A stretch of 64,000 bases of DNA from Chloroflexota bacterium (GTDB lineage Bacteria; Chloroflexota; Anaerolineae; Anaerolineales; VGOW01). A program made the translations under genes and the position numbers. The notes under the pieces were generated by a model. It was not told the DNA's origin. It made no database searches and was given only the letters and a program-made list of their open reading frames with translations. Below, in pieces: positions 38,503-55,503 of this stretch. How positions within the stretch are numbered: position 1 is the stretch's first letter; each line of letters begins with the position of its first letter. The DNA is taken from contig JACRBQ010000075.1 in NCBI GenBank assembly GCA_016213135.1, forward strand, positions 1-64,000, in the 5' to 3' direction.

Positions 38503-39734
38503 ACATTCTTTTCGTTTGCCCGTATACGCCTACGCCCATCCGAACTCGCCCATACAATCTGTTGCGCGCGTTGGCGCGGCGTGGTCACTCGGTGACGCTG
38601 GCTACGGTGTGGGAGACTCCCGATGAGCGCCGGGCGTTGGCGGAATGGCGCGAAGCGGGGTTGCAGGTGATTGCTGCGCCGCTGACCAAGCGCCGGTCGT
38701 TGCTGAACGTGCTGCGCACGCTGCCCACGCCCAGACCGGTGCAAGCCCTATACTGCTGGCACCCGGAGCTGTGGGCGCAGATTCGCGAGCGTCTGGCGGT
38801 CGCCCGGTTCGACGTGTGCCACGTGGAGCACCTGCGCGGCAGTGAGTATGCGGTGCAGTTGAAGCAGGTCGGCGCGCCGGTGGTGTGGGATAGCGTAGAC
38901 TGTATTACGATGCTGTTCGAGCGGGCCAGGCGCACCAGCCGGAGTCTGTTTGGCCGCTGGATACCGCGGCTGGAGCTTGCGCGCACGCGCCGCTACGAAG
39001 GCAGGCTGGTGAGGATGTTCCGGCGGGTGCTGGCCACCTCGGCGGAAGACGCAGCGGCTCTGCAGCAACTGGCCCGGGATGGCGGCGCGGGCGGGGGCCC
39101 GGCGGAAGCGGCCTTCGGCAGCGCCGTTGATGTTTTATCCAACGGGGTGGATTTGGACTATTTCCAGTCCCGAGGGGAGACGCGGGCTGCGGAGACGGTT
39201 GTATTCACCGGAAAGATGAGTTATCATGCCAATACTACGGCCGCGTTGTCTCTCGTCAAAGATATCATGCCGCTGGTGTGGCGCAGTCGGCCCGACACCC
39301 GAGTTGAGATCGTGGGCAACTCGCCGCCGCGGGAGCTTGCGGCGCTGGCATCGCGGCTGGCGCCCCGGGTCAGTGTGACCGGGCACGTTGATCACGTCCC
39401 GCCGTACCTGTGCGCGGCCACGGTTGCCGTTGCGCCGATGGCGTATGGGGCGGGGGTTCAAAACAAGATTCTGGAAGCGATGGCTTGCGCCACGCCGGTG
39501 GTGGCGACGCCGCAAGCGACGGCGGCGCTCGAAGTGCGGGCGGGGAGTGATTTGCTGGTAGCCGACTCGAATAGCGGGATGGCGGGCGAAATCCTGCGGC
39601 TGTTGGATGATGCGGCGTTGCGCCACAAGGTGGGGCAGAATGGGCGCGGTTACGTCGTCGAACACCACAATTGGGACCGGATCGCGACTCGATTGGAGGG
39701 CATTTATCAGGACTATGTCGACGCAGCACATTGA
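38499..39734 (+). CDS. Glycosyltransferase family 4
   Basis: Start GTG 38499 (VNILFVCPYTPTPIRTRPYNLLRALARRGHSVTLATV); VAVAPMAYGAGVQNKILEAMACATPVVATPQ. Confidence 0.88.
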   Translation: MNILFVCPYTPTPIRTRPYNLLRALARRGHSVTLATVWETPDERRALAEWREAGLQVIAAPLTKRRSLLNVLRTLPTPRPVQALYCWHPELWAQIRERLAVARFDVCHVEHLRGSEYAVQLKQVGAPVVWDSVDCITMLFERARRTSRSLFGRWIPRLELARTRRYEGRLVRMFRRVLATSAEDAAALQQLARDGGAGGGPAEAAFGSAVDVLSNGVDLDYFQSRGETRAAETVVFTGKMSYHANTTAALSLVKDIMPLVWRSRPDTRVEIVGNSPPRELAALASRLAPRVSVTGHVDHVPPYLCAATVAVAPMAYGAGVQNKILEAMACATPVVATPQATAALEVRAGSDLLVADSNSGMAGEILRLLDDAALRHKVGQNGRGYVVEHHNWDRIATRLEGIYQDYVDAAH

Positions 39735-41217
39735 TGCGGTGGCGGATCTGGGGTTGGAAGTGCAACGGCGACGCAGCGCCGGTCGGCTGTCGTCGCGCGC
39801 GCAGCGTAACCTGTTTATCGCCGGCCTCGTTGTTGCCGACTGTTTGTTGCTGGGGGCGGCGTTCGCTGCGGCTTACATTGTCCGTTTCGACGTCCAGTTG
39901 CCCGTCTTCCAGGTTATCCAGACACCGCAGCGCTTTCTGTACATCGGATTGAGCATCGCGTTGGTTCCGGTGTGGGTGGCGCTGTTCTGGCTGTACGGGC
40001 TGTACGACTGGGAAAAGCTGCTCGGCGGTACACAGGAATATGCCGCCGTGTTTCATGCCTGCGTGGCCGGGGCGGTGCTGATTGCGCTGGGGCAGTTTGC
40101 GATTAAGGATCTCGAAATCGCGCGCGGATGGGTGGGCCTGACGTGCGGGCTGACGTTTGTTTTCGTTTTCTGTGGCCGCTTTTTTTTGCGGCGGCTGGCT
40201 TATGCGGCGCGGCAGCGCGGCTATTTGGTGTCGTCGGCTCTCATCCTCGGGGCCAATGAGGAAGGCCGGTTGCTGGGCGCGCAGTTGCTGGCCTGGCCCA
40301 CCTCTGGTGTAGATGTGGTTGGCTACCTCGACGACGACCTGCCGCCCGGCACGCGCGTGTGCGGCAGTTTGTATTCGCTGGGCCGCCTGGATCGGCTGGA
40401 TGAGTTTGTGAGCAAGTACCAGGTCGAGGAGTTTATTCTGGCCGCCAGCGCCATTGAGCACGATGTGTTGCTGGATATTTTCCGCCGATACGGGATGGCT
40501 CCCGGGGTGCAACTGCGCCTGTCGTCGGGCCTGTTTGAATTGCTGAGCACGGGATTACACATTAAAGAGCTGGCCTCGGTGCCGCTGATCGGGGTTAACC
40601 GCGTGCGCCTCACCGGCACCGATGTGGCCCTGAAGAAACTGCTTGATGTCGGCCTGGCGCTGGCGGCGTTGCTGGCGCTGGCGCCGGTGATGCTGGTAGT
40701 GGCTATTCTGGTGAAGCTGGATTCGTCCGGCCCGGTGCTGTACCGCCGCCAGGTCATGGGGCTGAACGGACGGCAGTTCGGGGCATTGAAATTCCGAACC
40801 ATGCACATCAACGGGGATGCCATTCTGGCCGCCAACCCCGAACTCATGGACGAGCTGGCCACCACGCACAAACTCAAGGGCGACCCGCGTATCACTCGCG
40901 TGGGCTGGGTATTGCGCAAATACAGCCTCGACGAATTGCCGCAACTGTTCAATGTGATTCGGGGCGATATGAGCCTGGTCGGCCCGCGCATGATATCGCC
41001 GCCGGAGTTGAAACAGTACGGGCAGTGGGCCACGAACTTGCTCACCGTGCGCCCCGGCATCACCGGGCTGTGGCAGGTGTCGGGCCGTTCGGACGTGACG
41101 TATGAGGAACGGGTGCGGCTGGATATGTTCTATGTCCGCAACTACAGTATCTGGCTGGATCTACAGCTGATTTTCAGAACTATACCGGTTGTGCTGAGTG
41201 GAAAGGGTGCTTACTAA
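39715..41217 (+). CDS. Polyprenyl-phosphate sugar-1-phosphate transferase (WbaP/WcaJ type)
   Basis: Start ATG 39715 (MSTQHIDAVADLG); N-terminal TM helices, CoA_binding_3-like middle; C-terminal sugar-transferase core KLLDVGLALAALLALAPVMLVVAILVKLDSSGPVLYRRQVMG...DELPQLFNVIRGDMSLVGPR...RPGITGLWQVSGRS. Confidence 0.92.
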   Translation: MSTQHIDAVADLGLEVQRRRSAGRLSSRAQRNLFIAGLVVADCLLLGAAFAAAYIVRFDVQLPVFQVIQTPQRFLYIGLSIALVPVWVALFWLYGLYDWEKLLGGTQEYAAVFHACVAGAVLIALGQFAIKDLEIARGWVGLTCGLTFVFVFCGRFFLRRLAYAARQRGYLVSSALILGANEEGRLLGAQLLAWPTSGVDVVGYLDDDLPPGTRVCGSLYSLGRLDRLDEFVSKYQVEEFILAASAIEHDVLLDIFRRYGMAPGVQLRLSSGLFELLSTGLHIKELASVPLIGVNRVRLTGTDVALKKLLDVGLALAALLALAPVMLVVAILVKLDSSGPVLYRRQVMGLNGRQFGALKFRTMHINGDAILAANPELMDELATTHKLKGDPRITRVGWVLRKYSLDELPQLFNVIRGDMSLVGPRMISPPELKQYGQWATNLLTVRPGITGLWQVSGRSDVTYEERVRLDMFYVRNYSIWLDLQLIFRTIPVVLSGKGAY

Positions 41218-42167: not shown

Positions 42168-43913
42168 ATGGAACTCTATCGTTACTTGGAAGTTGTCCGC
42201 AAATGGATCTGGCTCATTGTGCTGGCTGTGACTCTCGCCTCCGGCACCAGCTTAATCGCCAGCCTGGTGGCCGTGCCGGTGTACAAAACAACCACCACGG
42301 TGATGATCGGGCAGTTCACGCAGGCCGCCAACCCCGTGGCCAGCGACTTTTTTACCGGCCAGCAATTGGCGCAAACATATGTCCAGTTGGTCGCCCGCGA
42401 GCCTATTCTTACGGCAACAATTTCATCGCTGGGGCTTGATCAGGACTGGCAATCATTGCGCGGGCAGGTGGCGGCCACGCTGGTGCAGGGCACCCAGTTG
42501 CTCGAAGTCAGCGTGTTGGACACCTCTCCCCAGCGCGCCAAGGCCATTGCCGATGAAATAGCGCGGCAGTTGATTCTGCAAAGCCCTACCACCCCTTCTG
42601 CCGACGAATTAGACCGGTTAGCCTTTGTCCAGGCTCAACTTCCCGAGTTGGAAAAGAAAATCAAGGATGCGAAAGACAAAATCGTCGAACTGGACCGGGT
42701 CGCCGCCAGCGCCACCAGCGCCAAGCAGATCCAGGACGCCCAGCAACAACAGGCTATTCTTCAGGCCCAGATCAACCAGTGGCAATCCACCTATGCCCAA
42801 CTGACCGCCACTCTCGGCAAGGGCAGCGTCAACTACGTCACCATCATTGAGCCGGCGGTGATTCCCCGCACGCCCATCAGCCCAAAGATCAGCCTTAACG
42901 TGATGTTGGCTGCAGCGATTGGCCTCACGTTATCGGTCGCGGCCGCATTCCTGCTGGAATATCTCGACGACACCATCCGCTCGCCCGAGGAAGTGCGCGC
43001 CCTGATCGGCGCGCCCATCCTCACCACCATCGGCAAAATCGAAGGCGAGGGTTACCCGTCCAAGCTCATCGCTGAATTGGACACGCGTTCGCCGCTGACC
43101 GAGTCGTATCGCGCCTTGCGCACCAACCTGCAATTCCTGGCGCTGGATGCGCCGTTGCGAACCATCCTCGTCACCAGTTCCGGCCCGGGCGAAGGCAAAA
43201 GCGTCACCGCTGCCAACCTGGCCGTCATCATGGCCCGCGCCGGGGTGCCGGTTATTCTGGTGGATGCCGACCTGCGCCGGTCGGTGATTCACAAGATATT
43301 CGGCCTCGAAAACCACACCGGCCTCACCAGTTGGCTCGTCGGCCAAAAGGATGTGCGCGCATTGGCCGGCACCCGCTTCTGGACCGATGCAGCCCCCTCG
43401 TCGTCGGGGCCGCTGGAGTCGTTCGTGCAAACCACGCGGGTGCCCGGTTTGCGCGTGGTCACCAGTGGCCCGCTGCCGCCCAACCCCGCCGAAGTGCTGG
43501 GGTCCACTCGCATGCGCGACTTCCTCGAAGAAGCGACGCAGTTGGCGGAGATTGTCATCGTGGACAGTCCGCCGTGCGTCACGGTGACCGATGCCGCCGT
43601 GCTCAGCCGCTGGACGGATGGCGTGCTGTTGGTATTGGACGGCCAGAACACCCATCGCCAGGCGGCCAAGCGCGCCAAAGAAAACCTGGACGCGGTGAAT
43701 GCCAAAGTGCTTGGCTCGGTTATCAATCGCATTGATGCAAACGCCGGCGGCTACTATGCCTACTATTCGTCGTATTACTACTACGGCGAGAGCGCGAAAC
43801 CGGCCAAGGCGACCAACGGAAAATTCTGGGGCAACCTCGCAAAGCTTTTCAGCAAGACCAAGTTCCCCAGCGTGAAAATTCCGGCGGCCAACGATAAGAC
43901 TCGATCGCAGTAA
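42168..43913 (+). CDS. Polysaccharide co-polymerase / bacterial tyrosine kinase (Wzz + BY-kinase)
   Basis: Wzz-type N-terminus with two TM helices; Walker A SSGPGEGKSVTAANLA, Walker A' VILVDADLRRS; Tyr-rich tail GGYYAYYSSYYYYGES. Confidence 0.93.
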   Translation: MELYRYLEVVRKWIWLIVLAVTLASGTSLIASLVAVPVYKTTTTVMIGQFTQAANPVASDFFTGQQLAQTYVQLVAREPILTATISSLGLDQDWQSLRGQVAATLVQGTQLLEVSVLDTSPQRAKAIADEIARQLILQSPTTPSADELDRLAFVQAQLPELEKKIKDAKDKIVELDRVAASATSAKQIQDAQQQQAILQAQINQWQSTYAQLTATLGKGSVNYVTIIEPAVIPRTPISPKISLNVMLAAAIGLTLSVAAAFLLEYLDDTIRSPEEVRALIGAPILTTIGKIEGEGYPSKLIAELDTRSPLTESYRALRTNLQFLALDAPLRTILVTSSGPGEGKSVTAANLAVIMARAGVPVILVDADLRRSVIHKIFGLENHTGLTSWLVGQKDVRALAGTRFWTDAAPSSSGPLESFVQTTRVPGLRVVTSGPLPPNPAEVLGSTRMRDFLEEATQLAEIVIVDSPPCVTVTDAAVLSRWTDGVLLVLDGQNTHRQAAKRAKENLDAVNAKVLGSVINRIDANAGGYYAYYSSYYYYGESAKPAKATNGKFWGNLAKLFSKTKFPSVKIPAANDKTRSQ

Positions 43914-44268: not shown

Positions 44269-47200
44269 GTGAATCAAAAAAGGTCACTGCGATATTTGGC
44301 CGCCATTCTCGGCGTGCTGGGTCTGGTGCTCGGGTCGAACATCGGCGCGTTCATGGATCAGACCACGGCGTTGACGATTGATCGCGCCAGGCTGGATGCC
44401 GCCCGCGCGTGCTGGTATTGCCCGGCGGCGGCCGGGCCGTTCCTGCTCGACGTCGCCAGGGTGAACGGCGGGTTGTTGGCCGGCGCGGTCAGCGGCCTGG
44501 GCGCAGGCCTGCTGGTGGCGTGGGCCATTTGGCACAACAGCGGCAGGCCACAGCCGGCGCGCAAACTCTCGGCCCAACGGCAAGCCTCAGAACTGGCCCG
44601 CCTCGCTCGCGAATTCCAGGAATTGAACGAACCGACCAAGATTATTTTGCGCCTGCACGACGAACTGTTGCAGCTCACGGGCGCGGAATGCGGAACCACT
44701 TTCTCGCTGGAGCTTGACTCCACTGTGGCCCGTGCGGCTTTTCGCGTGGGCGACGCCGACGCCGACGGAAACTTGTGGCCGGTGGAACAGGGCGTGGTGG
44801 CCTCGGCCCACGGCCGGATTGTGGAATACACCGCCGAGGACGTTTCCGCGGAAAAACCCGCGCATCGGGGCATTGGCACGGCGCTCTTAGTGCCGTTGGT
44901 ATTCGAGCGAACCGTGGTGGGCCTCGTCCACCTGCATCACGGGCGGCTGGGGGCTTTTGACGGAGCCATGGTGCGGTTTGTGGAAACGGTGACGGATCAC
45001 GCCGCCGTGGCCCTGCACAACGCCCGCCGTTACGCCGAGCAGGTGCATCGGGTTGATCTGCTCAGTCGGCGCTCGAACCAGTTGCGTATGTTGACCGATG
45101 TGGCCCTAGTCACCCGCGCCGACCGGGCACTGGTCGCCAATTTGGAATCGATTGCCGGCGCCGTGCGTGAAGCCACCGCGGCGAGCGTGGTGCTCGTGGG
45201 GTTGGTGCCGCCGGGCGACACCCAGTTAGAGTACGTGGCCGCCGCCGGGCTGCCTGCCGATTCGCCGTGGCAGTGGCAGCTCATGCAAGTTCGCGTCCAC
45301 GTGGAAACGGCGCGCCGCTGGATGCGCGAGGAAATTCGGCACGACGGCACCTATCTGATCCCTGCTGAAAACGTGGTGGAGGTGGTCCAATCGCTTGGCA
45401 TTCAGCAAGTCGTCACTTCCAACGCTCCCGAGTCCAAGAACCCATCGCCGGGCGCATTGGCGCTCACCCCATTGCTGGATGCGGCAGGAAACGTAGCCGG
45501 AGTTTTCTGCCTGTACAGCGCGCGCGAGTGGCGCGAGCCGCCGGCCCCACAACTGCAAATCGCGGAATCGTTCGCCGCTCAGGCTATGGCCGTAGTGGAC
45601 AACGCGCGGATGCTGTTCGGCGCGCGCGAGCATGCCAACGATACTCAAAATCGCGTCACGCAGTTGGAAGCCTTCAGCGAGGCCACGGCCGTGGCTACCG
45701 GCAGCCTGCGGCTGGAAGAAATCCCGGCTGAGGCGTTGGAGCAATTGCGGCGCATTGTTCCTTACGACGGGGCCGCATTCTGGCGGCGCGATCCCGCAAC
45801 CGACCGGCTGGTGGTGGCCGCCAGCCGTAAACTGCTCAGCGACCCGCAACGCGAAACGACCGAGTCTGCCGAAGCCCGGGACTCGGGCCGGGCTGTCAAT
45901 CCATTGTTTGCAGAAATCATCACCGCGCACAGCACGATCCTTGTCCCCGACCTGAAACAAGACCCGCGCTTCCCCATTCCGGGCATGGTCTATGTGGGCC
46001 GGGCCATGCGGTCGTGGCTGGCCGTGCCCCTGGTGGCACAAGGGCAGGTGATAGCCATTCTCGCGCTGGAAAAAGCCGAGGCCGATTTTTACAATTCCAA
46101 CTTCAGCACCCTGGCGTTGGCCTTTGCCAATCGCGTGGCGGTGTCCTGCGAGAATGCGCGGCTGTACGGCGAAAGCGTCCGCCATGCGCAAGCGGCCGAG
46201 GAGCAATCGCGCCAACTCGGCATCGTCAATCATGTTTCGTTGGAGGTGGGCGCAACTTTGGATCTGCCGCAGGTGCTGGCGGCCGGATTAAAAGAGCTGA
46301 CCGAGGCGCTGAGCGCCGAACAGTCGGTGGCCCTGGTGTTTGACGACGGCGAGCCTGACCGAGTGACGGCCGGGGCGCAATTCCCCGAAACAGGCCCCCG
46401 GGCCGAGGCGCCGTGGACGGTGGCCGGCAACCCGGTTCTGATGCAGTTGCGCGAGGCGCATTCGCCCATTGTGACTGAAGACGCTGACGGCGATAAACTT
46501 GCCAGGGCCGATCACTTCGAGTGGTTGGGGCGGGGCGTCAAGCCGTCGCTGCTGCTGCCGTTGCGGGCGCAGGATACGGCGGTGGGTGTCGTAGGCCTCG
46601 GCTACATCTCGCGAAGCGCCAGGCGCCGGTACACCGAAGAGGATGTGAAACTGGCCGGAGCCATTGCCGACCACATGGCCGCTGCGGCCCACAATGCCCG
46701 GTTATATGGCCGGGCGCAGAAACGCATGCACGAGCTTTCGGCGGCCAACCAGTTCAGCCGGGCCGTGTCGCATATCAACGAACTGAAGGCCCTTTGCAAC
46801 ACAGTTCAAACTCAATTGGGTGGCATGCTCAGCGCCGATCTGGCTTGCCTGGCCGTTTACGACGAGCCGCGAAACCTGCTATCTTTCCCGATGACAATGG
46901 TGAACGGCGCCCACACGGAGGGCGGCGCGCGCGTGCCTGAAGGCCTGGTGGGCTACGTGCTTCAGACTCAACAACCGCTGCAACTTAACGGCAACGTCGC
47001 CAAGACCGCGCGCGACCTGGGCGTGAACAGCTACGGCGCGTGGGGCACGGCCATCTCGGCTAAATGCTTCCTGGGTGTGCCGCTGACGATCAGCGGCCGC
47101 GTGTACGGCGTGCTGGCCGTTGCCAATTCGCAGCGCCCCGACGCCATTGACGGCGGGCACTTGCGAATTCTCTCGGCGGCCGCGCCGGCCATTGCCGCCA

Positions 47201-50200
47201 GTCTGGAAACAATCGCGCAGTTGGATCACGCCCGCCGCGTCGCGCGCGAATCCAGGGAATGGGCGCAAGTGCTGGAGACCATGAGCGATGCCGGCGCGCA
47301 AGTGACCGCTCAATCGCGCAGGTCGGAAGTCGTGGCGGCGGCGCTGGCGCAACTGCCACGGTTTATTTCTGCCGATTCAATCCGGTTGTGGCGGCGCCCC
47401 TTGCCGGACGGGGATTGGGTTTGTGAGGCAGGAACCGCAGCCGCCGAGACGAAGCCGGTAGCCGCCGACAATGCCGTGTTCGCCAGGTTGGCCGACAAAG
47501 CCCTGGCGATCAATGTGGCTGATGCCAACCAGAGCGCGGCGCTCGTTGGCTCCGGCGCGGCAACGGCAGGCATGCGGTCGTGGCTGGGCGTGCCACTGGC
47601 TAATCAGGACGAGGCGGAAGGAGTTTTAACGCTGGAGAAGGCCGAGCCGGCCCATTTCACGGCGTTGCATGAGATGACCGCTCTGGCCTTTGCCCGTCAG
47701 CTGGCTGTAGCCCTGGGCCATGCGCAGGTGTTTGAGCAACAGACTCAGCTCAACGGCGAGTTGCAAACGCGGGCCGACCGGCTGGAGCAATTGAAACGGG
47801 CTTTCGCCGAATTACACGGCTCGTTGTCGGCGGATGACGTGCTTCGCGTCGCGGCGCAGCATTTGGCCGGGGCTGTGCCCTCGTCCGTGTCTGGCGTGGT
47901 GGTGTACCCCGATGCGCCGGGTCAGGGCGCTTTGGCGTACACGAGCGCGTCCGCAACGATTGATCCACGGGAAACCTTGCCGTTGGATAGTTCGCTGACT
48001 CGGCATCTAAGTGAAACACTGGCGCCGCTGGCTGTGGATGACGTGGCCGCGCACGAGGTGGTGAAGCCGGAGCATGTGGCGTGGGTCGCCCCGGATATTC
48101 ATTCGGCGTTGGTGGCGCCGCTGATGGTGGCCGATGTGCTGGCCGGTGTGGCCGTGGTCGGCCGGGCGGCCAACGCCGGGGCGTTTAGTCTCGCGGAAAT
48201 GGATCTGGTGGCGGCGCTGGCCGCGCAAATTTCGGCGGCGCTGGACAATGCGCGGCAGCTCGCCAGCGCGCAGCGCGCACAACGCGAGCAGGAGGCGGTG
48301 GCCCGGTTCGGCGCTGCGGTGGGCCGGGCCACCACCTTCGAGCAATTGCTGCAAACGGTGAAGACTCAATTGCAGCCGACGGTGGGGGACTCGACGGTAG
48401 AGTTGGCGATGGTCGGTGACGGGCAGGACCAAGTGGCCGCCGGTGCGGCGGTTCCCGTTCAACAAATCGCCCGAAGCCGTCGCGCGTTGATCTTCAATCA
48501 ACTGGAACCTGCGACCGAGGCTAACACGAACGGCGATGGCACGACGAACGCCGGTTCGCTAATTGGCGTGCCTTTGGTGATCGACGACAAAGTAATTGGC
48601 GTGCTGACCGTGGCCGATGCGACCCGGCCGATGGCGTTTGATGAGCGGCATGAACGAATGCTGACGGCGTTTGCCGCTCCGCTGGCCGTGGCGGTGGACA
48701 CGGTGCGCAAGTTCGAGCAGAGGCGACGTTTCAGCGACGATTTGAATGAGCAGTTGCGGGAACGCGCGGCGCAGTTGACCGAGTGGCGGGGCAAGCATGG
48801 GCAGATGGAGCACCTTGCCAGGGATTTGGAGAATCGGGTTGCCACGCGGGAAGCCGAGCTGGCAAGTTTACAGCGGCAGTATGCCCAGGCAGCGGATGCC
48901 ACGGCGGCGGCGGAGCGCTACCTGGCGGAGCGCGAAGCGGAGCTGGCAGCTCTGAAGGAGCTGCACGCGCAGGCGCAACGAGGGTCGGAGGCGCTGGAGC
49001 GCCGACTGGCGGACACCGAGTCGGCTTTGGGCGAGGCCCGGCAACAGCACTCGGCAGCGCAGCAATTGGCGCAGGGGTTGGCGCAGGAGTTGGCAGAGCG
49101 CGGGGCGGAGCAAGAGACTGGGACTCGCTTGGCCGCTCTCACCGCAGAGTTGGCGAGTGCGCAGGCCCTGCACGAAGAGGCGCGTAGCGCGTATGCCCGG
49201 CTGCAACAACTAGTGAGCCAACAAATGACGCCAGCCGCGCCGGGGGAGCAACAGACCGATGCGGCGACGGTGCGCGAGCTTTATGAACAGGCGCGGGTGA
49301 ATACCCAATGGCATCGGCAAGCCGCGTCCCTTGCCAAGTCTGCCGAGGACTTTGTGTCGGGGTCTGAGTTGGACAATATGCTCAACCGCGAACTGCTTCT
49401 AGCCAACACCGCGCTGGGCGCTGAATACGGCGCGGTGCTGGTGGCCAACAAGTCGGCGTCGGAGATGCTTTTCCGCGCGGTCTTGGGGCCGGTGGAGTTG
49501 TTGCCGACGGGCGGCAAAGAGGCGCCCCTGGGCGGGCGGCGCGGCCTCGTCGGTGCGGCCATCCGCGAGCGCCGGCCGATCTTTGTTCCCAATCTTGTTG
49601 CCGATGAACGATGGAGGTCGAATCCGCTTCCCGGCAGCGAGGAGTATCTAAGCGGCGCAGTAGCGCCGCTTAGTACCGCCGGGCGCACGCTGGGGGCGTT
49701 GTTGTTCCTGTCCAGGCGAGAGGGCGCGTTTGGGGTGGAGCAATTGCCGTTGATTACGGCCGCCGCCAATCAAGTGGCTGCCTTGCTGCGCAACAGCGAA
49801 TTGCATCAGACTTTCCACGCGCAAGCGCGGGAATTGGAAGGGATGATGGCGCCACCGCCCGAGGCGGCGCCGGCCGCCATCGCCCCAGTGGCAGCTGCTG
49901 CCACCGCGACCCAGGTTGCCGCACCGCTGGCCAGGCCGGAGGTTGCAACCCCCACAGCCCATCCGCTTGCGGCTGCGCCGGCAGTGGCAACCGTATCGTC
50001 GCGCGCACCGGCGCCCGTGGCAAAGCCACAGCCCGTCGCCTCTGCGGCCGCCGGCGCCGGTTGGCTGGCGAAATGGCATGAACTTCCGTCAGCCGCAAAG
50101 GCGATGGCGCTAGTTGCGACCGTTATGGTGGTGGGTGGCGTCGGCGTGGCGTTGCTTGTGGGCGCGGGCGTCGGCGCGCCTCCCCCGGTCACCGGCACGG

Positions 50201-50637
50201 CGGCGTCAACTCAGGCGGTGGCAGTGATCAGCCCTTCCGCCGTTTTACGTCCCACGTTGCAACCCACGTTGCCCTCCACGCAAGTACCCATCGTGGTCAG
50301 CACCGCCACGCCCGAACCCACTCAAACCCAGACCGCAGCGCCTACCGTGCCGCCCACGGCCACGGCCACGTTCACGCCCACCCTCACCGTCGCGCCATTG
50401 CCCACGCTGCCCGAGGGCGTCATCGGTTACGCCGTGGTATCGGTGAAGGAAGGCACCTCGTCGGCCCGGTTGCGCGCCACTCCCGGGGGCGTCGTCATTG
50501 CCGCAGTGCCCAGGGACTCGCGGGTTGAGGTCTTGAAAGGACGGGAGATCGTTGATAATATCAACTGGATTCAAGTCCGGGATGCCACGGGCTTGACCGG
50601 CTGGATCGCTGAAGAATTGCTGGTGTTTCAACCATAA
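44269..50637 (+). CDS. Giant membrane-anchored multi-GAF protein with coiled coil and extracellular SH3b-like C-terminus
   Basis: 2122 aa; two N-terminal TM helices around a CWYC-containing loop; about nine GAF-like repeats by eye (recurring RSWLAVPLVAQGQVIAILALEKAE / FLGVPLTISGRVYGVLAVAN / AVALDNAR patterns); coiled coil about residues 1490-1650; third TM; Pro/Thr stalk; SH3b-like SARLRATPGGVVIAAVPRDSRVEVLKGREIVDNINWIQVRDATGLTGWIAEELL. Confidence 0.85.
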   Translation: MNQKRSLRYLAAILGVLGLVLGSNIGAFMDQTTALTIDRARLDAARACWYCPAAAGPFLLDVARVNGGLLAGAVSGLGAGLLVAWAIWHNSGRPQPARKLSAQRQASELARLAREFQELNEPTKIILRLHDELLQLTGAECGTTFSLELDSTVARAAFRVGDADADGNLWPVEQGVVASAHGRIVEYTAEDVSAEKPAHRGIGTALLVPLVFERTVVGLVHLHHGRLGAFDGAMVRFVETVTDHAAVALHNARRYAEQVHRVDLLSRRSNQLRMLTDVALVTRADRALVANLESIAGAVREATAASVVLVGLVPPGDTQLEYVAAAGLPADSPWQWQLMQVRVHVETARRWMREEIRHDGTYLIPAENVVEVVQSLGIQQVVTSNAPESKNPSPGALALTPLLDAAGNVAGVFCLYSAREWREPPAPQLQIAESFAAQAMAVVDNARMLFGAREHANDTQNRVTQLEAFSEATAVATGSLRLEEIPAEALEQLRRIVPYDGAAFWRRDPATDRLVVAASRKLLSDPQRETTESAEARDSGRAVNPLFAEIITAHSTILVPDLKQDPRFPIPGMVYVGRAMRSWLAVPLVAQGQVIAILALEKAEADFYNSNFSTLALAFANRVAVSCENARLYGESVRHAQAAEEQSRQLGIVNHVSLEVGATLDLPQVLAAGLKELTEALSAEQSVALVFDDGEPDRVTAGAQFPETGPRAEAPWTVAGNPVLMQLREAHSPIVTEDADGDKLARADHFEWLGRGVKPSLLLPLRAQDTAVGVVGLGYISRSARRRYTEEDVKLAGAIADHMAAAAHNARLYGRAQKRMHELSAANQFSRAVSHINELKALCNTVQTQLGGMLSADLACLAVYDEPRNLLSFPMTMVNGAHTEGGARVPEGLVGYVLQTQQPLQLNGNVAKTARDLGVNSYGAWGTAISAKCFLGVPLTISGRVYGVLAVANSQRPDAIDGGHLRILSAAAPAIAASLETIAQLDHARRVARESREWAQVLETMSDAGAQVTAQSRRSEVVAAALAQLPRFISADSIRLWRRPLPDGDWVCEAGTAAAETKPVAADNAVFARLADKALAINVADANQSAALVGSGAATAGMRSWLGVPLANQDEAEGVLTLEKAEPAHFTALHEMTALAFARQLAVALGHAQVFEQQTQLNGELQTRADRLEQLKRAFAELHGSLSADDVLRVAAQHLAGAVPSSVSGVVVYPDAPGQGALAYTSASATIDPRETLPLDSSLTRHLSETLAPLAVDDVAAHEVVKPEHVAWVAPDIHSALVAPLMVADVLAGVAVVGRAANAGAFSLAEMDLVAALAAQISAALDNARQLASAQRAQREQEAVARFGAAVGRATTFEQLLQTVKTQLQPTVGDSTVELAMVGDGQDQVAAGAAVPVQQIARSRRALIFNQLEPATEANTNGDGTTNAGSLIGVPLVIDDKVIGVLTVADATRPMAFDERHERMLTAFAAPLAVAVDTVRKFEQRRRFSDDLNEQLRERAAQLTEWRGKHGQMEHLARDLENRVATREAELASLQRQYAQAADATAAAERYLAEREAELAALKELHAQAQRGSEALERRLADTESALGEARQQHSAAQQLAQGLAQELAERGAEQETGTRLAALTAELASAQALHEEARSAYARLQQLVSQQMTPAAPGEQQTDAATVRELYEQARVNTQWHRQAASLAKSAEDFVSGSELDNMLNRELLLANTALGAEYGAVLVANKSASEMLFRAVLGPVELLPTGGKEAPLGGRRGLVGAAIRERRPIFVPNLVADERWRSNPLPGSEEYLSGAVAPLSTAGRTLGALLFLSRREGAFGVEQLPLITAAANQVAALLRNSELHQTFHAQARELEGMMAPPPEAAPAAIAPVAAAATATQVAAPLARPEVATPTAHPLAAAPAVATVSSRAPAPVAKPQPVASAAAGAGWLAKWHELPSAAKAMALVATVMVVGGVGVALLVGAGVGAPPPVTGTAASTQAVAVISPSAVLRPTLQPTLPSTQVPIVVSTATPEPTQTQTAAPTVPPTATATFTPTLTVAPLPTLPEGVIGYAVVSVKEGTSSARLRATPGGVVIAAVPRDSRVEVLKGREIVDNINWIQVRDATGLTGWIAEELLVFQP

Positions 50638-50688
50638 GTTGCGCGTCGCTCTCACCCGTCGCCTAACTTTGAGGAGTCAAACAGTTCA

Positions 50689-51594
50689 ATGTCTAACGAT
50701 CGTGGCTATTTGGCGCAGCCTGCTTCGGCGCGTGTGACGCGGTGGGGGCTTTACGGCCTGACAGCTCTGGCCATCCTCGGCGTGCTGGCGCGGCTGGGGG
50801 TACGAACTATTGCCATAGCCCAGGAAGTGGCGGCGTACACCGCCACCCCCGAGCCGCCGGTAGCCATTAGCGTTACGCTGGCACCAAAGCTCACGGTCAC
50901 GCGCCCAGGCCCGGTGACGGCCACGCCACAGCCCACCCTGCCTCCCACTCCTGTGCCGCCGGCTGTGCAAACTGCGGTCTACCTTGAGCAGTGCTCGTTG
51001 TACAGCCAGATTCCACAGGATCTGCTCACCCGCGTGGACCGCGACGTGGAACTGCCGCGCGACTACCAGCCGCCCGATTTGGCGTCGGCGCCCCTTAACG
51101 CTCGCAATGCGTACTACGCGACGATATTATTGCGCCAGCCGATTCATCAGCCGTTGCTGGATATGCTCGATGCGATGAACCAGGCTGGGTTACACCCGTG
51201 GGTCATGTCGGGGTTTCGGTCTTATAGCGCTCAGGCCGAGGTGTTCGAAAAATGGACGGTGGAGTACCCGGATCGGGCGTCACAATTGAGCGCGATGCCG
51301 GGGCACAGCGAGCACCAGTTGGGCACGGCCATCGATTTCAGCACGCCGACGATGAACGATCTGTATCAGGATTATTTCCACAAGGGCTTTGCCGCCACGC
51401 CCGAAGGACAATGGCTCACCAGGCAGGCGGCTTACTACGGCTTCACTTTGTCGTACCCGGCATGGGCAGTTGACGTGACCGGATACGAGTGGGAGCCGTG
51501 GCATTTTCGCTACGTTGGCATACTGGCTCAGCAACTGGCGGAGCGCCACATCACGTTAATCGAATACCTCCAGATATGCACCCCTCACCCTTAG
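50689..51594 (+). CDS. VanY-type D-alanyl-D-alanine carboxypeptidase, membrane-anchored, copy 1
   Basis: SGFRSYSAQAEVFEKW...PGHSEHQLGTAIDFS...YEWEPWHFRYVG: M15/VanY zinc and catalytic motifs; N-terminal TM and Pro/Thr stalk. Confidence 0.92.
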   Translation: MSNDRGYLAQPASARVTRWGLYGLTALAILGVLARLGVRTIAIAQEVAAYTATPEPPVAISVTLAPKLTVTRPGPVTATPQPTLPPTPVPPAVQTAVYLEQCSLYSQIPQDLLTRVDRDVELPRDYQPPDLASAPLNARNAYYATILLRQPIHQPLLDMLDAMNQAGLHPWVMSGFRSYSAQAEVFEKWTVEYPDRASQLSAMPGHSEHQLGTAIDFSTPTMNDLYQDYFHKGFAATPEGQWLTRQAAYYGFTLSYPAWAVDVTGYEWEPWHFRYVGILAQQLAERHITLIEYLQICTPHP

Positions 51595-51621
51595 CGCCCC
51601 AGCACCGAATGCGAACAGTGT

Positions 51622-52626
51622 ATGACTGAACCGACACCCGAGGCGATACCGCACCGGCGTCGGCGGCGGCGACGCCCTAAAAACGCCCCTCCGTTTACAA
51701 TTCAGCCGTTGCACATTACAGTAGCCAGCGTGGCCCTGTTGGCGGTCATTATCGGTGTGGCGATTGTTGTTGAAAACAGGCCCGCTTTGCAGGGGCGCGA
51801 AGCGTATGCGCCCCCCAATAACGGGGCCGCGGTAGTTGCCGCGACTAGCACGGCAACCGCTACGGCAACCGCAACCGTTGAGCCGACTGCCACCCACACG
51901 TTGCCGCCGCCCAGCCCCGCGGCGACGTTCACAGCCACCGTGCCCACGCCCACGGCCACGCGGCAGCCCACGCCCACGCCCTCGCCGGTACCGCCCGTTG
52001 TATTGACGGCGATTGCCCGGCAGTGCGCGCAGTATACTGACGTGCAACGGCTGCTGCTGACGCGTGTAGACCGGGATGTGTTATTGCCTCGCGATTACCT
52101 GCCCGAGGATCTTCAAGTGATGCCGCTTAATCCGGGCAACGTGTTCTACGGCTCGGTCCAAATGCGCAAAATCGTTCAGCAGCCGCTGCTCGATATGCTG
52201 GATGCCATGAACCAGGCCGGGCTGAAGACCATCGTAATTTCGGGCTATCGATCCTTTGCCGATCAAACCCTGGCTTATGAGCAGTGGTTGAGGCTGTTTC
52301 CGGATCGGGCGCCCCAATTGAGCGCGGTGCCCGGCCACAGCGAGCACCAGTTGGGCACAGCCATTGACTTCAGCACGCCGTATATGAAGGATCAGTACGG
52401 GGATTACTTTAGCAAGAGTTTTGCCGACACCGCGGAGGGCCTGTGGCTGACCAAGCAAGCGGCCTATTACGGGTTCACATTGTCGTACCCGCAATGGGCT
52501 GAGGATGTCACGGGTTACGAATGGGAACCGTGGCACTTTCGATTCGTGGGGTCATTAGCCCAACAGCTCTTGGAAAACCATGTGACACTGACGGAGTACA
52601 TTCAAAAGTGCAACGGCGGCTCGTGA
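51622..52626 (+). CDS. VanY-type D-alanyl-D-alanine carboxypeptidase, membrane-anchored, copy 2
   Basis: SGYRSFADQTLAYEQW...PGHSEHQLGTAIDFS...YEWEPWHFRFVG; N-terminal TM and Pro/Thr stalk; paralogue of the preceding gene. Confidence 0.92.
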   Translation: MTEPTPEAIPHRRRRRRRPKNAPPFTIQPLHITVASVALLAVIIGVAIVVENRPALQGREAYAPPNNGAAVVAATSTATATATATVEPTATHTLPPPSPAATFTATVPTPTATRQPTPTPSPVPPVVLTAIARQCAQYTDVQRLLLTRVDRDVLLPRDYLPEDLQVMPLNPGNVFYGSVQMRKIVQQPLLDMLDAMNQAGLKTIVISGYRSFADQTLAYEQWLRLFPDRAPQLSAVPGHSEHQLGTAIDFSTPYMKDQYGDYFSKSFADTAEGLWLTKQAAYYGFTLSYPQWAEDVTGYEWEPWHFRFVGSLAQQLLENHVTLTEYIQKCNGGS

Positions 52627-52664
52627 TGGATTACAGCAATAATTCAGCAAGGTGAATCAATTCG

Positions 52665-53234
52665 ATGTATCAGACTCAATCGCAAATAACAATCATGCTC
52701 GTGATCGTCGCCGTGCTGGCCGTTGTGGCCGGCGTGGTCATTGTGCTGGTGACCAGCCCTAAATCGTTGGAGTTGTCCAACCTTGAGCCGGCCCGATCGC
52801 CGACCGCTACCGCTCAATTGGGGACGGCACCCCCGTCTGTGGAGCCGACGGCCGCGCCCGCCGACGCCGACACGCCCACGGCGCGACCGAGCATGACACC
52901 GTTGGCCACGCGCACGCCGCGGCCCCCTTCGGCTACGCCCACGCGCACGCGCATACCGTCGGCCACGCCCACCGCCACCATCACGCCGCTTGCCACGTTG
53001 CCGGCTGATGTCCGCGCCCTGGCTATCATCAATATTACGGATGGCGGTTCGGCTCGATTGCGCGCCGTGCCGGGGGGCGACATCATCGCGGCTATTCCCG
53101 GCGGGGCCACGGTGCAACTTTTGAAGAAGCCCAGCCGTGAGCTCGACGGTATCACGTGGGTGCAGATACGCGATGAAAACGGCGTCGTGGGATGGGTGGC
53201 TTCAGACTTGCTTTTGATTCTGCCATCGCCCTGA
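52665..53234 (+). CDS. Membrane-anchored SH3b-domain protein, copy 1
   Basis: N-terminal TM (IMLVIVAVLAVVAGVVIVLV), Pro/Thr linker, SH3b-like SARLRAVPGGDIIAAIPGGATVQLLKKPSRELDGITWVQIRDENGVVGWVASDLLLIL. Confidence 0.85.
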   Translation: MYQTQSQITIMLVIVAVLAVVAGVVIVLVTSPKSLELSNLEPARSPTATAQLGTAPPSVEPTAAPADADTPTARPSMTPLATRTPRPPSATPTRTRIPSATPTATITPLATLPADVRALAIINITDGGSARLRAVPGGDIIAAIPGGATVQLLKKPSRELDGITWVQIRDENGVVGWVASDLLLILPSP

Positions 53235-53264
53235 TTCACTGCAGCGAGTCCAGATGATTGCCAT

Positions 53265-53369
53265 TGGGAGCCGTGGCACTTTCGATACGCGGGGTCATTG
53301 GCCCAACAGCTTTTGGAAAACCATGTGACACTAACGGCGTACATTCAAATGTGCAGCGGCGGTTCGTGA
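53265..53369 (+). pseudogene. Truncated vanY C-terminal remnant (34 codons plus stop)
   Basis: Reads WEPWHFRYAGSLAQQLLENHVTLTAYIQMCSGGS*, near-identical to the last 34 codons of 51622-52626. Confidence 0.9.
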
Positions 53370-53408
53370 CGGGATTGCAGCGTTAGTTCAGCAAGGTGAA
53401 TCAATTCG

Positions 53409-53894
53409 ATGTATCAGACTCAATTGCAGATAAGAGCAGTGATCGTGGTCGTCGCCGTGCTGGCCGTTGTGGCCGGCGTGGTCATTGTCCTGGTAACCAG
53501 CCCTAAATCGTTGGAACTGTCCGACCTTCAGCCAGCCAGGTCGCAGACTGCAACAGCTCAATCGGGCACGCCGGCCCCGGCCACCGACACGCCCGCAGCG
53601 CCGCCAACCATCAAACCGTTGGCCACACCCAACGTCACCGTCACGCCGTTTGCCACGTTGCCGGCTGATGTCCGCGCTCTGGCTATCATCAACCTTACAG
53701 ATGGCGCTTCGGCTCGATTGCGCGCCGTGCCGGGAGGCGACATCATCGAGGCCATTCCGGGTGGCGCCACCGTGCAACTATTGAAGCAGCCCAGCCGCGT
53801 GCTCGATGGCCTCACGTGGGTGCAGATACGCGATGAAAACGGCGTCGCGGGGTGGGTGGCGACACATTTGCTTGTGATTCTGCCATCACCCTGA
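53409..53894 (+). CDS. Membrane-anchored SH3b-domain protein, copy 2 (shorter linker)
   Basis: Paralogue of 52665-53234; the 28-aa length difference lies in the Pro/Thr linker. Confidence 0.85.
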   Translation: MYQTQLQIRAVIVVVAVLAVVAGVVIVLVTSPKSLELSDLQPARSQTATAQSGTPAPATDTPAAPPTIKPLATPNVTVTPFATLPADVRALAIINLTDGASARLRAVPGGDIIEAIPGGATVQLLKQPSRVLDGLTWVQIRDENGVAGWVATHLLVILPSP

Positions 53895-53913: not shown

Positions 53914-55503
53914 ATGATATCCATCATCATCCCGGCGCTCAATGCAGCCGGCACGCTGGATCAGTGCCTTGAGGCTCTGGACCGCCAAACGGTTGGCCGG
54001 GATTGTTACGAAGTCATCGTCGTCGACGACGGTTCCACGGATGCTACTGCGCTGGTGGCGCGCGCCCACGGCGCGCGTTGCCTGCAGCTCCCCCACGCCG
54101 GCCCGGCCATTGCCCGCAACCGTGGGGTGGCTCAGGCGCAGGGCCGCCTCGTCCTTTTTACCGATGCCGATTGCATGCCCGCCTCCGATTGGGTGGAGCA
54201 GATGCGGGCCGCATTTGACGACGACGAAGTGATGGGCGCCAGGGGCGTATACCGCACGCGCCAGCGCGGGCTGGTTCCCCGGTTCGTCCAGCAGGAATAC
54301 CAGGACAAATACGATCACACGGCGCGGCAGACTGCGGTGGATTTCATTGACACCTATTCCGCGGGTTACCGGCGCGCGGTGTTTGTTGAGAACGGCGGTT
54401 TCGAAGAGGCCTTTCCGATTCCGTCGGTGGAAGACCAGGAACTGTCGTTCCGGCTGGCCGAGAAGGGATACCGCTTGACGTTTGCCTCGCGCGCTGCGGT
54501 GTTTCACCTGCACGACGCCACGCCCGGCGACTACATCCGGCGCAAATTCTGGATCGGCTACTGGAAGGCGTTCCTGCTTCGGTGGCACCCCGAAAAGACG
54601 CTGGCCGATTCTCATACGCCGCTGACGCAGCGCGTTCAATTGGCTGCTTTTGCGCTGGCCTTCGGCCTGGGCGCGCTGGGTTGGTTGTTGGAACCCGTTC
54701 GCCTGGGAGCATGGTGGGTGGCCGCGGTGGGGCTGGGCGTGTTCTTCGTTTCTGCGCTGCCATTTGTGGTGAGAATCGTCCGCCGTGATGCGCCGGTCGC
54801 CGCCATTGCCCCGGCCATGCTGGTCTGCCGCGCGGCGGCGCTGGGGGCGGGTTTGGCGGCCGGGATGGTGGGGCTGAGTGCGCGCCCATCGCCGCGAAAG
54901 CCGGCGCTGTCGTGGAGCGCACGGGCTATCAAGCGTGCCATGGACGTCATCGGCGCTGCGCTGGCGCTGGTAGTCTCGGCGCCCGCGCTAGTGCTTTTGT
55001 CGGCGCTGATAAAACTGGACTCGCCCGGGCCGGTGTTTTTTTTGCAAGAGAGAGTCGGCCTAAACGGGCGCAAGTTCCGCATCGTCAAGCTGCGATCGAT
55101 GGTGCAGGGGGCCGACAAAATGGTGAAGCCGGGTGTAGGCCCGGGTCCGGGTGGCAAGCGCCCCGAGGATCCGCGAGTGACGCGCATCGGCAGGTTCCTC
55201 CGCCGGTGGAGTCTGGATGAAGTTCCTCAATTCTGGAATGTGCTGGTGGGCGAGATGAGCCTGGTGGGGCCGCGCCCCGAAGAGGCGCAAGTGGTGGCCG
55301 GGTATTCGGATTGGCACCGGCGGCGGTTGGCCGTGAAGCCGGGGCTGAGCGGGCCGATGCAGGTCAATGGCCGCGGCCAGTTGTCGTTGGATGAGCGTGT
55401 GCGCCTGGAGTTGGAATACATTGAGCATTACACGCTGTGGAAGGACATTGCCATTTTGTTGCGCACCATCCCGGTAGTGATTGCCGGGCAGGGCGCTTAT
55501 TGA
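53914..55503 (+). CDS. Fusion of GT2 glycosyltransferase and polyprenyl-phosphate sugar transferase
   Basis: N-terminus ISIIIPALNAAGTLDQCLEAL...VVDDGSTDATALV...FTDADCMPASDWV; C-terminus RAMDVIGAALALVVSAPALVLLSALIKLDSPGPVFFLQERVGLNGRKFRIVKLRSM...DEVPQFWNVLVGEMSLVGPRPEE...KPGLSGPMQVNGRG. Confidence 0.92.
   Translation: MISIIIPALNAAGTLDQCLEALDRQTVGRDCYEVIVVDDGSTDATALVARAHGARCLQLPHAGPAIARNRGVAQAQGRLVLFTDADCMPASDWVEQMRAAFDDDEVMGARGVYRTRQRGLVPRFVQQEYQDKYDHTARQTAVDFIDTYSAGYRRAVFVENGGFEEAFPIPSVEDQELSFRLAEKGYRLTFASRAAVFHLHDATPGDYIRRKFWIGYWKAFLLRWHPEKTLADSHTPLTQRVQLAAFALAFGLGALGWLLEPVRLGAWWVAAVGLGVFFVSALPFVVRIVRRDAPVAAIAPAMLVCRAAALGAGLAAGMVGLSARPSPRKPALSWSARAIKRAMDVIGAALALVVSAPALVLLSALIKLDSPGPVFFLQERVGLNGRKFRIVKLRSMVQGADKMVKPGVGPGPGGKRPEDPRVTRIGRFLRRWSLDEVPQFWNVLVGEMSLVGPRPEEAQVVAGYSDWHRRRLAVKPGLSGPMQVNGRGQLSLDERVRLELEYIEHYTLWKDIAILLRTIPVVIAGQGAY

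Follow-up and report, generated by a model that had tools for sequence, protein, structure and literature searches.

In Streptomyces, the histidine kinase CvnA8 is bound and stimulated by CvnF8, a GAF protein without a kinase, and accessories of the CvnF type accompany kinases that have no outside sensor (PMC13343842). A different arrangement is found in SpkD of Synechocystis, a receptor of unknown signal in which a kinase is followed by a transmembrane (TM) segment and an SH3b domain (PMC1262709, PMC2176072). Crosstalk between RetS and GacS is a case of one receptor modulating another kinase (PMC12148439).

Here, we describe a giant transmembrane protein from a Chloroflexota bacterium of the order Anaerolineales that resembles each of these systems in part. 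As in the CvnF-type proteins of Actinomycetota, its GAF domains come without a kinase or other catalytic output; the provision of sensory input to a sensorless kinase is, for the giant, only proposed. CvnF differs in having only one GAF, in being encoded together with its kinase and in its demonstrated binding to it (PMC13343842); for the giant, such binding is a conjecture. As in the SpkD-type cyanobacterial proteins, a cytoplasmic signalling part is followed by a TM and then by SH3b, but in SpkD this part is a Ser/Thr kinase and a GAF array is missing (PMC1262709, PMC2176072). The likeness to RetS/GacS would lie in the modulation of another kinase; RetS is itself a sensor kinase, which the giant is not (PMC12148439). 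Our literature search, which covered open-licence papers, found no description of the giant's architecture and nothing on giant or multi-GAF proteins in Chloroflexota, including the giant kinases of the order. GAF receptors and SH3b-tailed membrane proteins are already known; the giant combines them and does not constitute a new category.

Results

A giant GAF protein without a catalytic output domain

The window, i.e. the whole stretch of 64,000 nt that was analysed (contig JACRBQ010000075.1, assembly GCA_016213135.1), lies in a 3.8-Mb genome of 147 contigs. The gene of the giant, the string downstream of it and the BY-kinase/Wzz gene before it are on the forward strand. A gene with a GTG start (44269-50637) encodes a protein of 2122 aa, for which the earlier note on this DNA, made from the letters alone, had described two N-terminal TMs, about nine GAFs, a coiled coil, a third TM, a stalk and an SH3b domain. 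This layout was borne out, and all six open reading frames listed in that note were found where it had placed them. Pfam detected seven to nine stretches each of GAF_2, GAF and GAF_3, together with a C-terminal SH3_3, and a GAF model built here resolved exactly nine GAFs, each with an i-E of ~1e-15 or better. They are preceded by a hairpin (44296-44529) comprising TM1 (aa 10-28), a loop with a CxxC motif (aa 48-51) and TM2 (aa 69-87), as identified by hydropathy and by alignment with a second member of the family, from the genome SJ819. A coiled coil of 227 aa (aa 1477-1703; 48697-49377), recognized by Pfam matches of coiled-coil type, separates the eighth GAF from the ninth, after which come a linker, TM3 (aa 1946-1964; 50104-50160), a Pro/Thr-rich, presumably extracytoplasmic stalk defined by its composition (50161-50448) and the SH3b domain (50458-50622).

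The N-terminal hairpin, the coiled coil and the linker-TM-stalk-SH3b tail are the only non-GAF stretches longer than 60 aa. Searches with Pfam and NCBIfam and inspection of every non-GAF stretch revealed no HisKA/DHp phospho-acceptor domain in the window giant, and no HATPase catalytic domain was found with Pfam, nor was one present in the SJ819 relative. With both HisKA and HATPase missing, the giant is not a sensor histidine kinase. In agreement with the earlier note, Pfam and NCBIfam also showed no other kinase, GGDEF, HD-GYP or phosphatase domain. Since all long non-GAF stretches are accounted for, a hidden catalytic domain would have no place in the protein, and at the sensitivity of Pfam and NCBIfam such an output domain is excluded. 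A simple pattern search found no cyclic-nucleotide NKFDE-type motif in the GAFs of either giant, and a phmmer search of the PDB returned no matches. An AF2 model of the N-terminal 470 aa (pLDDT 59, from a two-row alignment) was too poor for use.

Topology was predicted from charge bias. The numbers of K+R within 15 residues, for the window and SJ819 proteins respectively, are 3 and 2 before TM1, 3 and 6 after TM2, 2 and 3 before TM3, and 0 and 1 after TM3. By this rule of thumb, the GAFs of both giants would be inside and the TM1-TM2 loop and the SH3b tail outside, with TM3, also located by hydropathy, running from inside to outside. The charge bias thus supports the extracellular SH3b that had been suggested previously.

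GAF-by-GAF correspondence with giant histidine kinases

End fragments of the giant were used as genome-search queries. In 60 relatives, the C-terminal 455 aa recovered many ORFs of 2000-2700 aa, and those that were read out (L026-L045; e.g. L026:3386-9856 and L029:7282-14784) encode giant histidine kinases. By inspection, many of these ORFs lie just behind an OmpR-type response-regulator gene and are followed by one for an alpha/beta-hydrolase. Three of these kinases, analysed with Pfam, contain 9-11 GAFs and, after these, PAS, HisKA and HATPase, and the family type GAF(8-12)-PAS-HisKA-HATPase is widespread across this Anaerolineales-type order. A kinase of this parent type (2156 aa; contig C67, L026), recognized with Pfam, is kept in the source genome of the window. 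Eighteen parent-type kinases have a single N-terminal TM (none was detected in two of them) and no outside domain.

The giant aligns to the kinases along its GAF array; its last GAF (from ~1687) pairs with the last GAF of the kinases, at 31-36% in the best cases, and the similarity stops at the start of their PAS-HisKA-HATPase part. The GAFs of the giant were assigned to positions in the kinase by two methods, a maximum-likelihood (ML) tree of 80 GAFs and position-specific HMMs for which 18 kinases served as training set. Both gave the order 4-5-7-8-x-7-8-x-last, where x is an extra GAF found, for example, in the kinase of the same-genus genome G002 (its GAFs 9/10). In this assignment GAF1 (44641-45015) and GAF2 (45142-45594) correspond to kinase GAF4 and GAF5; a first cassette contains GAF3 (45721-46146), GAF4 (46273-46686) and GAF5 (46792-47205), matching kinase GAF7, GAF8 and x, and a second repeats the same order with GAF6 (47329-47715), GAF7 (47839-48243) and GAF8 (48289-48696). 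GAF9 (49378-49785) corresponds to the last kinase GAF, the one located directly before PAS-HisKA-HATPase.

The giant therefore keeps the orthologous GAF order of the giant kinase lineage, which speaks to its descent and not to its activity. Relative to the kinase, it is without the N-terminal PAS, GAF1-3, GAF6 and the C-terminal PAS-HisKA-HATPase core. A TM-stalk-SH3b segment stands where this core was, a two-TM hairpin with a predicted outside CxxC loop occupies the N-terminus, and the three-GAF cassette 7-8-x has been multiplied. Both kinds of protein share the same GAF lineages in the same order, the same last GAF and an array of similar size, whereas the kinases have the PAS, HisKA and HATPase outputs, the upstream response-regulator gene and one N-terminal TM, and the window giant has instead two extra TMs, the CxxC loop and the SH3b predicted to be outside. 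At the level of sequence, these comparisons show the giant to be a kinase-less, triple-TM descendant of the order's giant multi-GAF histidine kinase. Of the earlier reading of it, the lack of a recognisable output domain stands; by the GAF mapping it is, however, a kinase-stripped copy of a widespread kinase and not a free-standing invention.

A second, longer member in another family

The MAG Anaerolineales bacterium SJ819, from another family of the order, encodes a relative of 4476 aa (JADZEK010000091.1; L054:429-13859). Its N-terminus is 34% identical to that of the window giant, with both cysteines of the CxxC (48 and 51) in matching positions, and it has 23 GAFs by the GAF model, no kinase and the same TM-stalk-SH3b tail. 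The position-specific HMMs give its GAF order as 4-5-[7-8-x]-[7-8-x]-[8-x]-[7-8-x]-[7-8-x]-[8-x]-[8]-[7-8-x]-last. In the ML tree, the first GAFs of the two giants are sisters (support 100/85), and so are their last GAFs (98/81). The simplest reading of these sequences is a single origin followed by cassette amplification. The SJ819 genome also probably keeps a parent-type kinase, as judged from a 2353-aa multi-GAF frame on contig C34.

Three samples that overlap, drawn from the order (400 genomes), the class (396) and the phylum (400), yielded the full giant N-terminus only in the window genome and in SJ819; nearly all other matches to the N-terminal query start in or near the GAF region. This search scores only the best first-look candidates, and very diverged members may be missed. 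A scan with the two-row N-terminal alignment gave SJ819 as its only match, and 85,000 species genomes, scanned for the full protein by six short exact patterns only, gave none. The giant is absent from the same-genus genomes G002 and G004 (97% completeness). It is thus rare and patchy.

The giant heads a string of envelope genes

Downstream of the giant, and co-directional with it, lie genes for two VanY-type (M15B) D,D-carboxypeptidases, two membrane-anchored stalked SH3b proteins (52665-53234 and 53409-53894) and a GT2 glycosyltransferase fused to a bacterial sugar transferase of the priming type (53914-55503), all assigned with Pfam. The first VanY (50689-51594) has an N-terminal membrane anchor by hydropathy, and the second (51622-52626) is 62% identical to it. 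Their position between the giant and the stand-alone SH3b proteins had been noted before, and Pfam confirmed both as members of the VanY family PF02557 (E 2e-35 and 9e-34). The metal/catalytic motifs HxxGxAxD and ExWH are intact, with GHSEHQLGTAID and EPWH present in both enzymes. They are not of the resistance-type VanY/VanXY, for which the NCBIfam models gave scores far under their cut-offs (80-84 vs 250 bits and lower).

The gaps in this string measure 51, 27, 38, 174 and 19 nt, a spacing that is operon-like (19-51 nt) save for a duplication scar. The 174-nt gap contains a C-terminal remnant of a VanY gene (53259-53369; CHWEPWHFRYAGSLAQQLLENHVTLTAYIQMCSGGS*), overlooked in the earlier note, that is 81% identical to the end of the second VanY. 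In its C-terminal half, the second SH3b protein shares 81% identity with the first, and the 20 nt preceding the start codon are identical in the two SH3b genes. The remnant and these identical 20 nt thus indicate that the VanY-SH3b pair was tandem-duplicated and that a third VanY was then mostly deleted.

Upstream lies a polysaccharide cluster with glycosyltransferases, an O-antigen ligase/polymerase-type protein, a sugar transferase, an epimerase and a BY-kinase/Wzz gene. The latter, which encodes a polysaccharide chain-length protein of the Wzz/BY-kinase type (42168-43913; Pfam, NCBIfam), ends 355 nt before the giant, and because of this gap it is possibly on a separate transcript. The cluster holds two priming-type sugar transferases, the GT2 fusion and another at 39607-41217.

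On contig C151 (L055) of SJ819, VanY, SH3b and GT2/sugar transferase genes recur with order and orientation unchanged; the SJ819 giant is on contig C91. The ends of these contigs share an exact 53-bp overlap in the expected orientation. The 53-bp sequence (L054:1-53, L055:11277-11329) is, however, a dispersed repeat with 44 near-identical matches in this genome, often at contig ends, and the overlap was rejected as proof of contiguity. Adjacency in SJ819 is therefore plausible and consistent with the data, but not established. Conservation of the neighbourhood is supported by the co-occurrence of the giant, VanY, SH3b and GT2/sugar transferase in SJ819 and weakened by the same-genus genomes without the giant.

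In other relatives, VanY genes lie beside GAF histidine kinases (L058:117-9063, L060:2327-5131 and L061), the neighbours being a MASE1-GAF kinase in a same-genus genome and a divergent GAF-PAS kinase in another family. A VanY beside a GAF sensor was seen in three lineages; this adjacency is likely chance, since GAF genes are so abundant (~100 GAF domains in the source genome).

The SH3b tail is a common surface module

The SH3_3 match in the giant scored 22.8 bits with Pfam on the protein, under the 27-bit cut-off, and 29.2 bits, over it, when the same stretch was found as DNA in the genome search; the two small proteins scored 35.4 and 29.3 bits. AF2 modelled the domain as an all-beta SH3-like barrel (core pLDDT ~95; 15-row alignment), consistent with its previous description as SH3b-like. 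The solved structures nearest to the model are SH3 domains of clostridial and other wall/peptidoglycan hydrolases, and the best match, a clostridial protein SH3 (E 9.5e-3, prob 1.00), is modest. In this model the tail has the SH3b (SH3_3) fold, of a putative wall-binding type.

With a small SH3b protein as query, matches were obtained in 85/101 genomes, although these include similarity of the stalk. Among the 20 matches that were read out, many are membrane proteins in which a Pro/Thr stalk leads to a C-terminal SH3b; three of those put through Pfam are DUF389 proteins. Such DUF389 proteins with stalk and SH3b tail (L089, L099, L106) are apparently widespread in the class. They share the TM-Pro/Thr stalk-SH3b type of tail with the giant, but their front is a DUF389 membrane domain whereas that of the giant is made of GAFs. 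The tail is thus a common surface module of Anaerolineae, carried also by unrelated membrane proteins. Consequently it is weak evidence for wall sensing: its presence supports the outside placement and says little about what the SH3b reads. The earlier proposal that the SH3b senses the state of wall or glycan, with the array linking polysaccharide assembly to peptidoglycan remodelling, is a hypothesis.

Discussion

The location of the giant in an operon-like string of envelope enzymes and its predicted outward SH3b suggest that it may convey the state of the envelope to an existing kinase or serve as an envelope tether. Our leading candidate, put forward tentatively, is that the giant modulates a giant histidine kinase in trans as an envelope-coupled accessory receptor. 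In such a model, the outside SH3b and CxxC loop would respond to envelope state, the resulting change would travel along a dimeric GAF rod, and this rod would modulate the kinase via heterotypic GAF contacts. VanY wall trimming and polysaccharide priming from the same gene string would thereby be tuned to the envelope. We rank this reading first because of the CvnF8 and SpkD precedents and because the kinases have no outside domain. It is also suggested by the GAF-by-GAF correspondence with the kinases, the cut at PAS-HisKA-HATPase and the same protein ends in a second family, by the parent-type kinase retained in the window genome and probably in SJ819, and by the predicted outward position of an SH3b with a modelled SH3 fold and the operon-like spacing. 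Against it, the giant and kinase genes of the window genome are on different contigs and not adjacent, the SH3b tail is generic in the class, and there are only two members, with same-genus genomes lacking the giant and no deep conservation. Moreover, the difference between 9 and 23 GAFs is equally compatible with a spacer and with a signalling chain.

This last change in GAF number is the main fact in favour of a role without signalling, which we place next and regard as rather doubtful. Here the GAF array would be a long cytoplasmic dimeric rod that positions the VanYs, the SH3b proteins and the priming enzyme, with the SH3b pinning its membrane end to wall or glycan. The number of cassettes goes from two to about eight (partial ones counted) with both ends kept, which would suit a rod of variable length, as would the lack of an output domain, an SH3 fold nearest to the binding domains of wall hydrolases and partners that are envelope enzymes. 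However, the GAFs retain clear GAF-family scores with no decay to featureless spacers, and a rod could be had more cheaply from a coiled coil alone. Instead of a histidine kinase, the target of the giant might be the upstream BY-kinase/Wzz or the GT2-sugar transferase. This would fit the location of its gene where the glycosyltransferase cluster ends, with the BY-kinase gene before it and the priming transferase after it, and the recurrence of the VanY-SH3b-GT2/sugar transferase order in SJ819; the 355-nt gap to the BY-kinase points the other way, towards separate transcription, and we consider such local regulation unlikely. Least probable of all, to our mind, is that the giant is a broken kinase, fused by chance to a TM-SH3b tail and retained by drift as a decaying paralogue. 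The rarity of the giant, the same-genus genomes without a copy and the instability of a locus with tandem duplications and a gene remnant agree with decay, but ORFs of 6.4 kb and 13.4 kb are intact in two families with the same ends, GAF order and CxxC, and all nine GAFs of the window protein are intact.

If the accessory-receptor reading is taken further, the two giants could represent a class of receptors in which the kinase was stripped, an extracellular tail of wall-binding type was added to give envelope input to a sensorless kinase, and length is tuned by cassettes; we hold this generalization to be speculative and somewhat improbable. The locus offers a traceable conversion of a kinase into a transmembrane accessory, in which the genome still has a parent-type kinase and the point of the cut has been located. 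Duplication of cassettes lengthened the GAF array, which reached 23 GAFs in SJ819. Two questions therefore become testable: whether very long GAF arrays serve ligand logic or length, and how the state of the envelope is coupled to cytoplasmic signalling in Chloroflexota, given that no outside sensor is seen on their giant kinases.

Among proteins with extended arrays of either domain, the 4476-aa protein of SJ819 is perhaps one of the longest GAF arrays, and a 1147-aa protein encoded at L063:5044-8487 contains six SH3b-type stretches.
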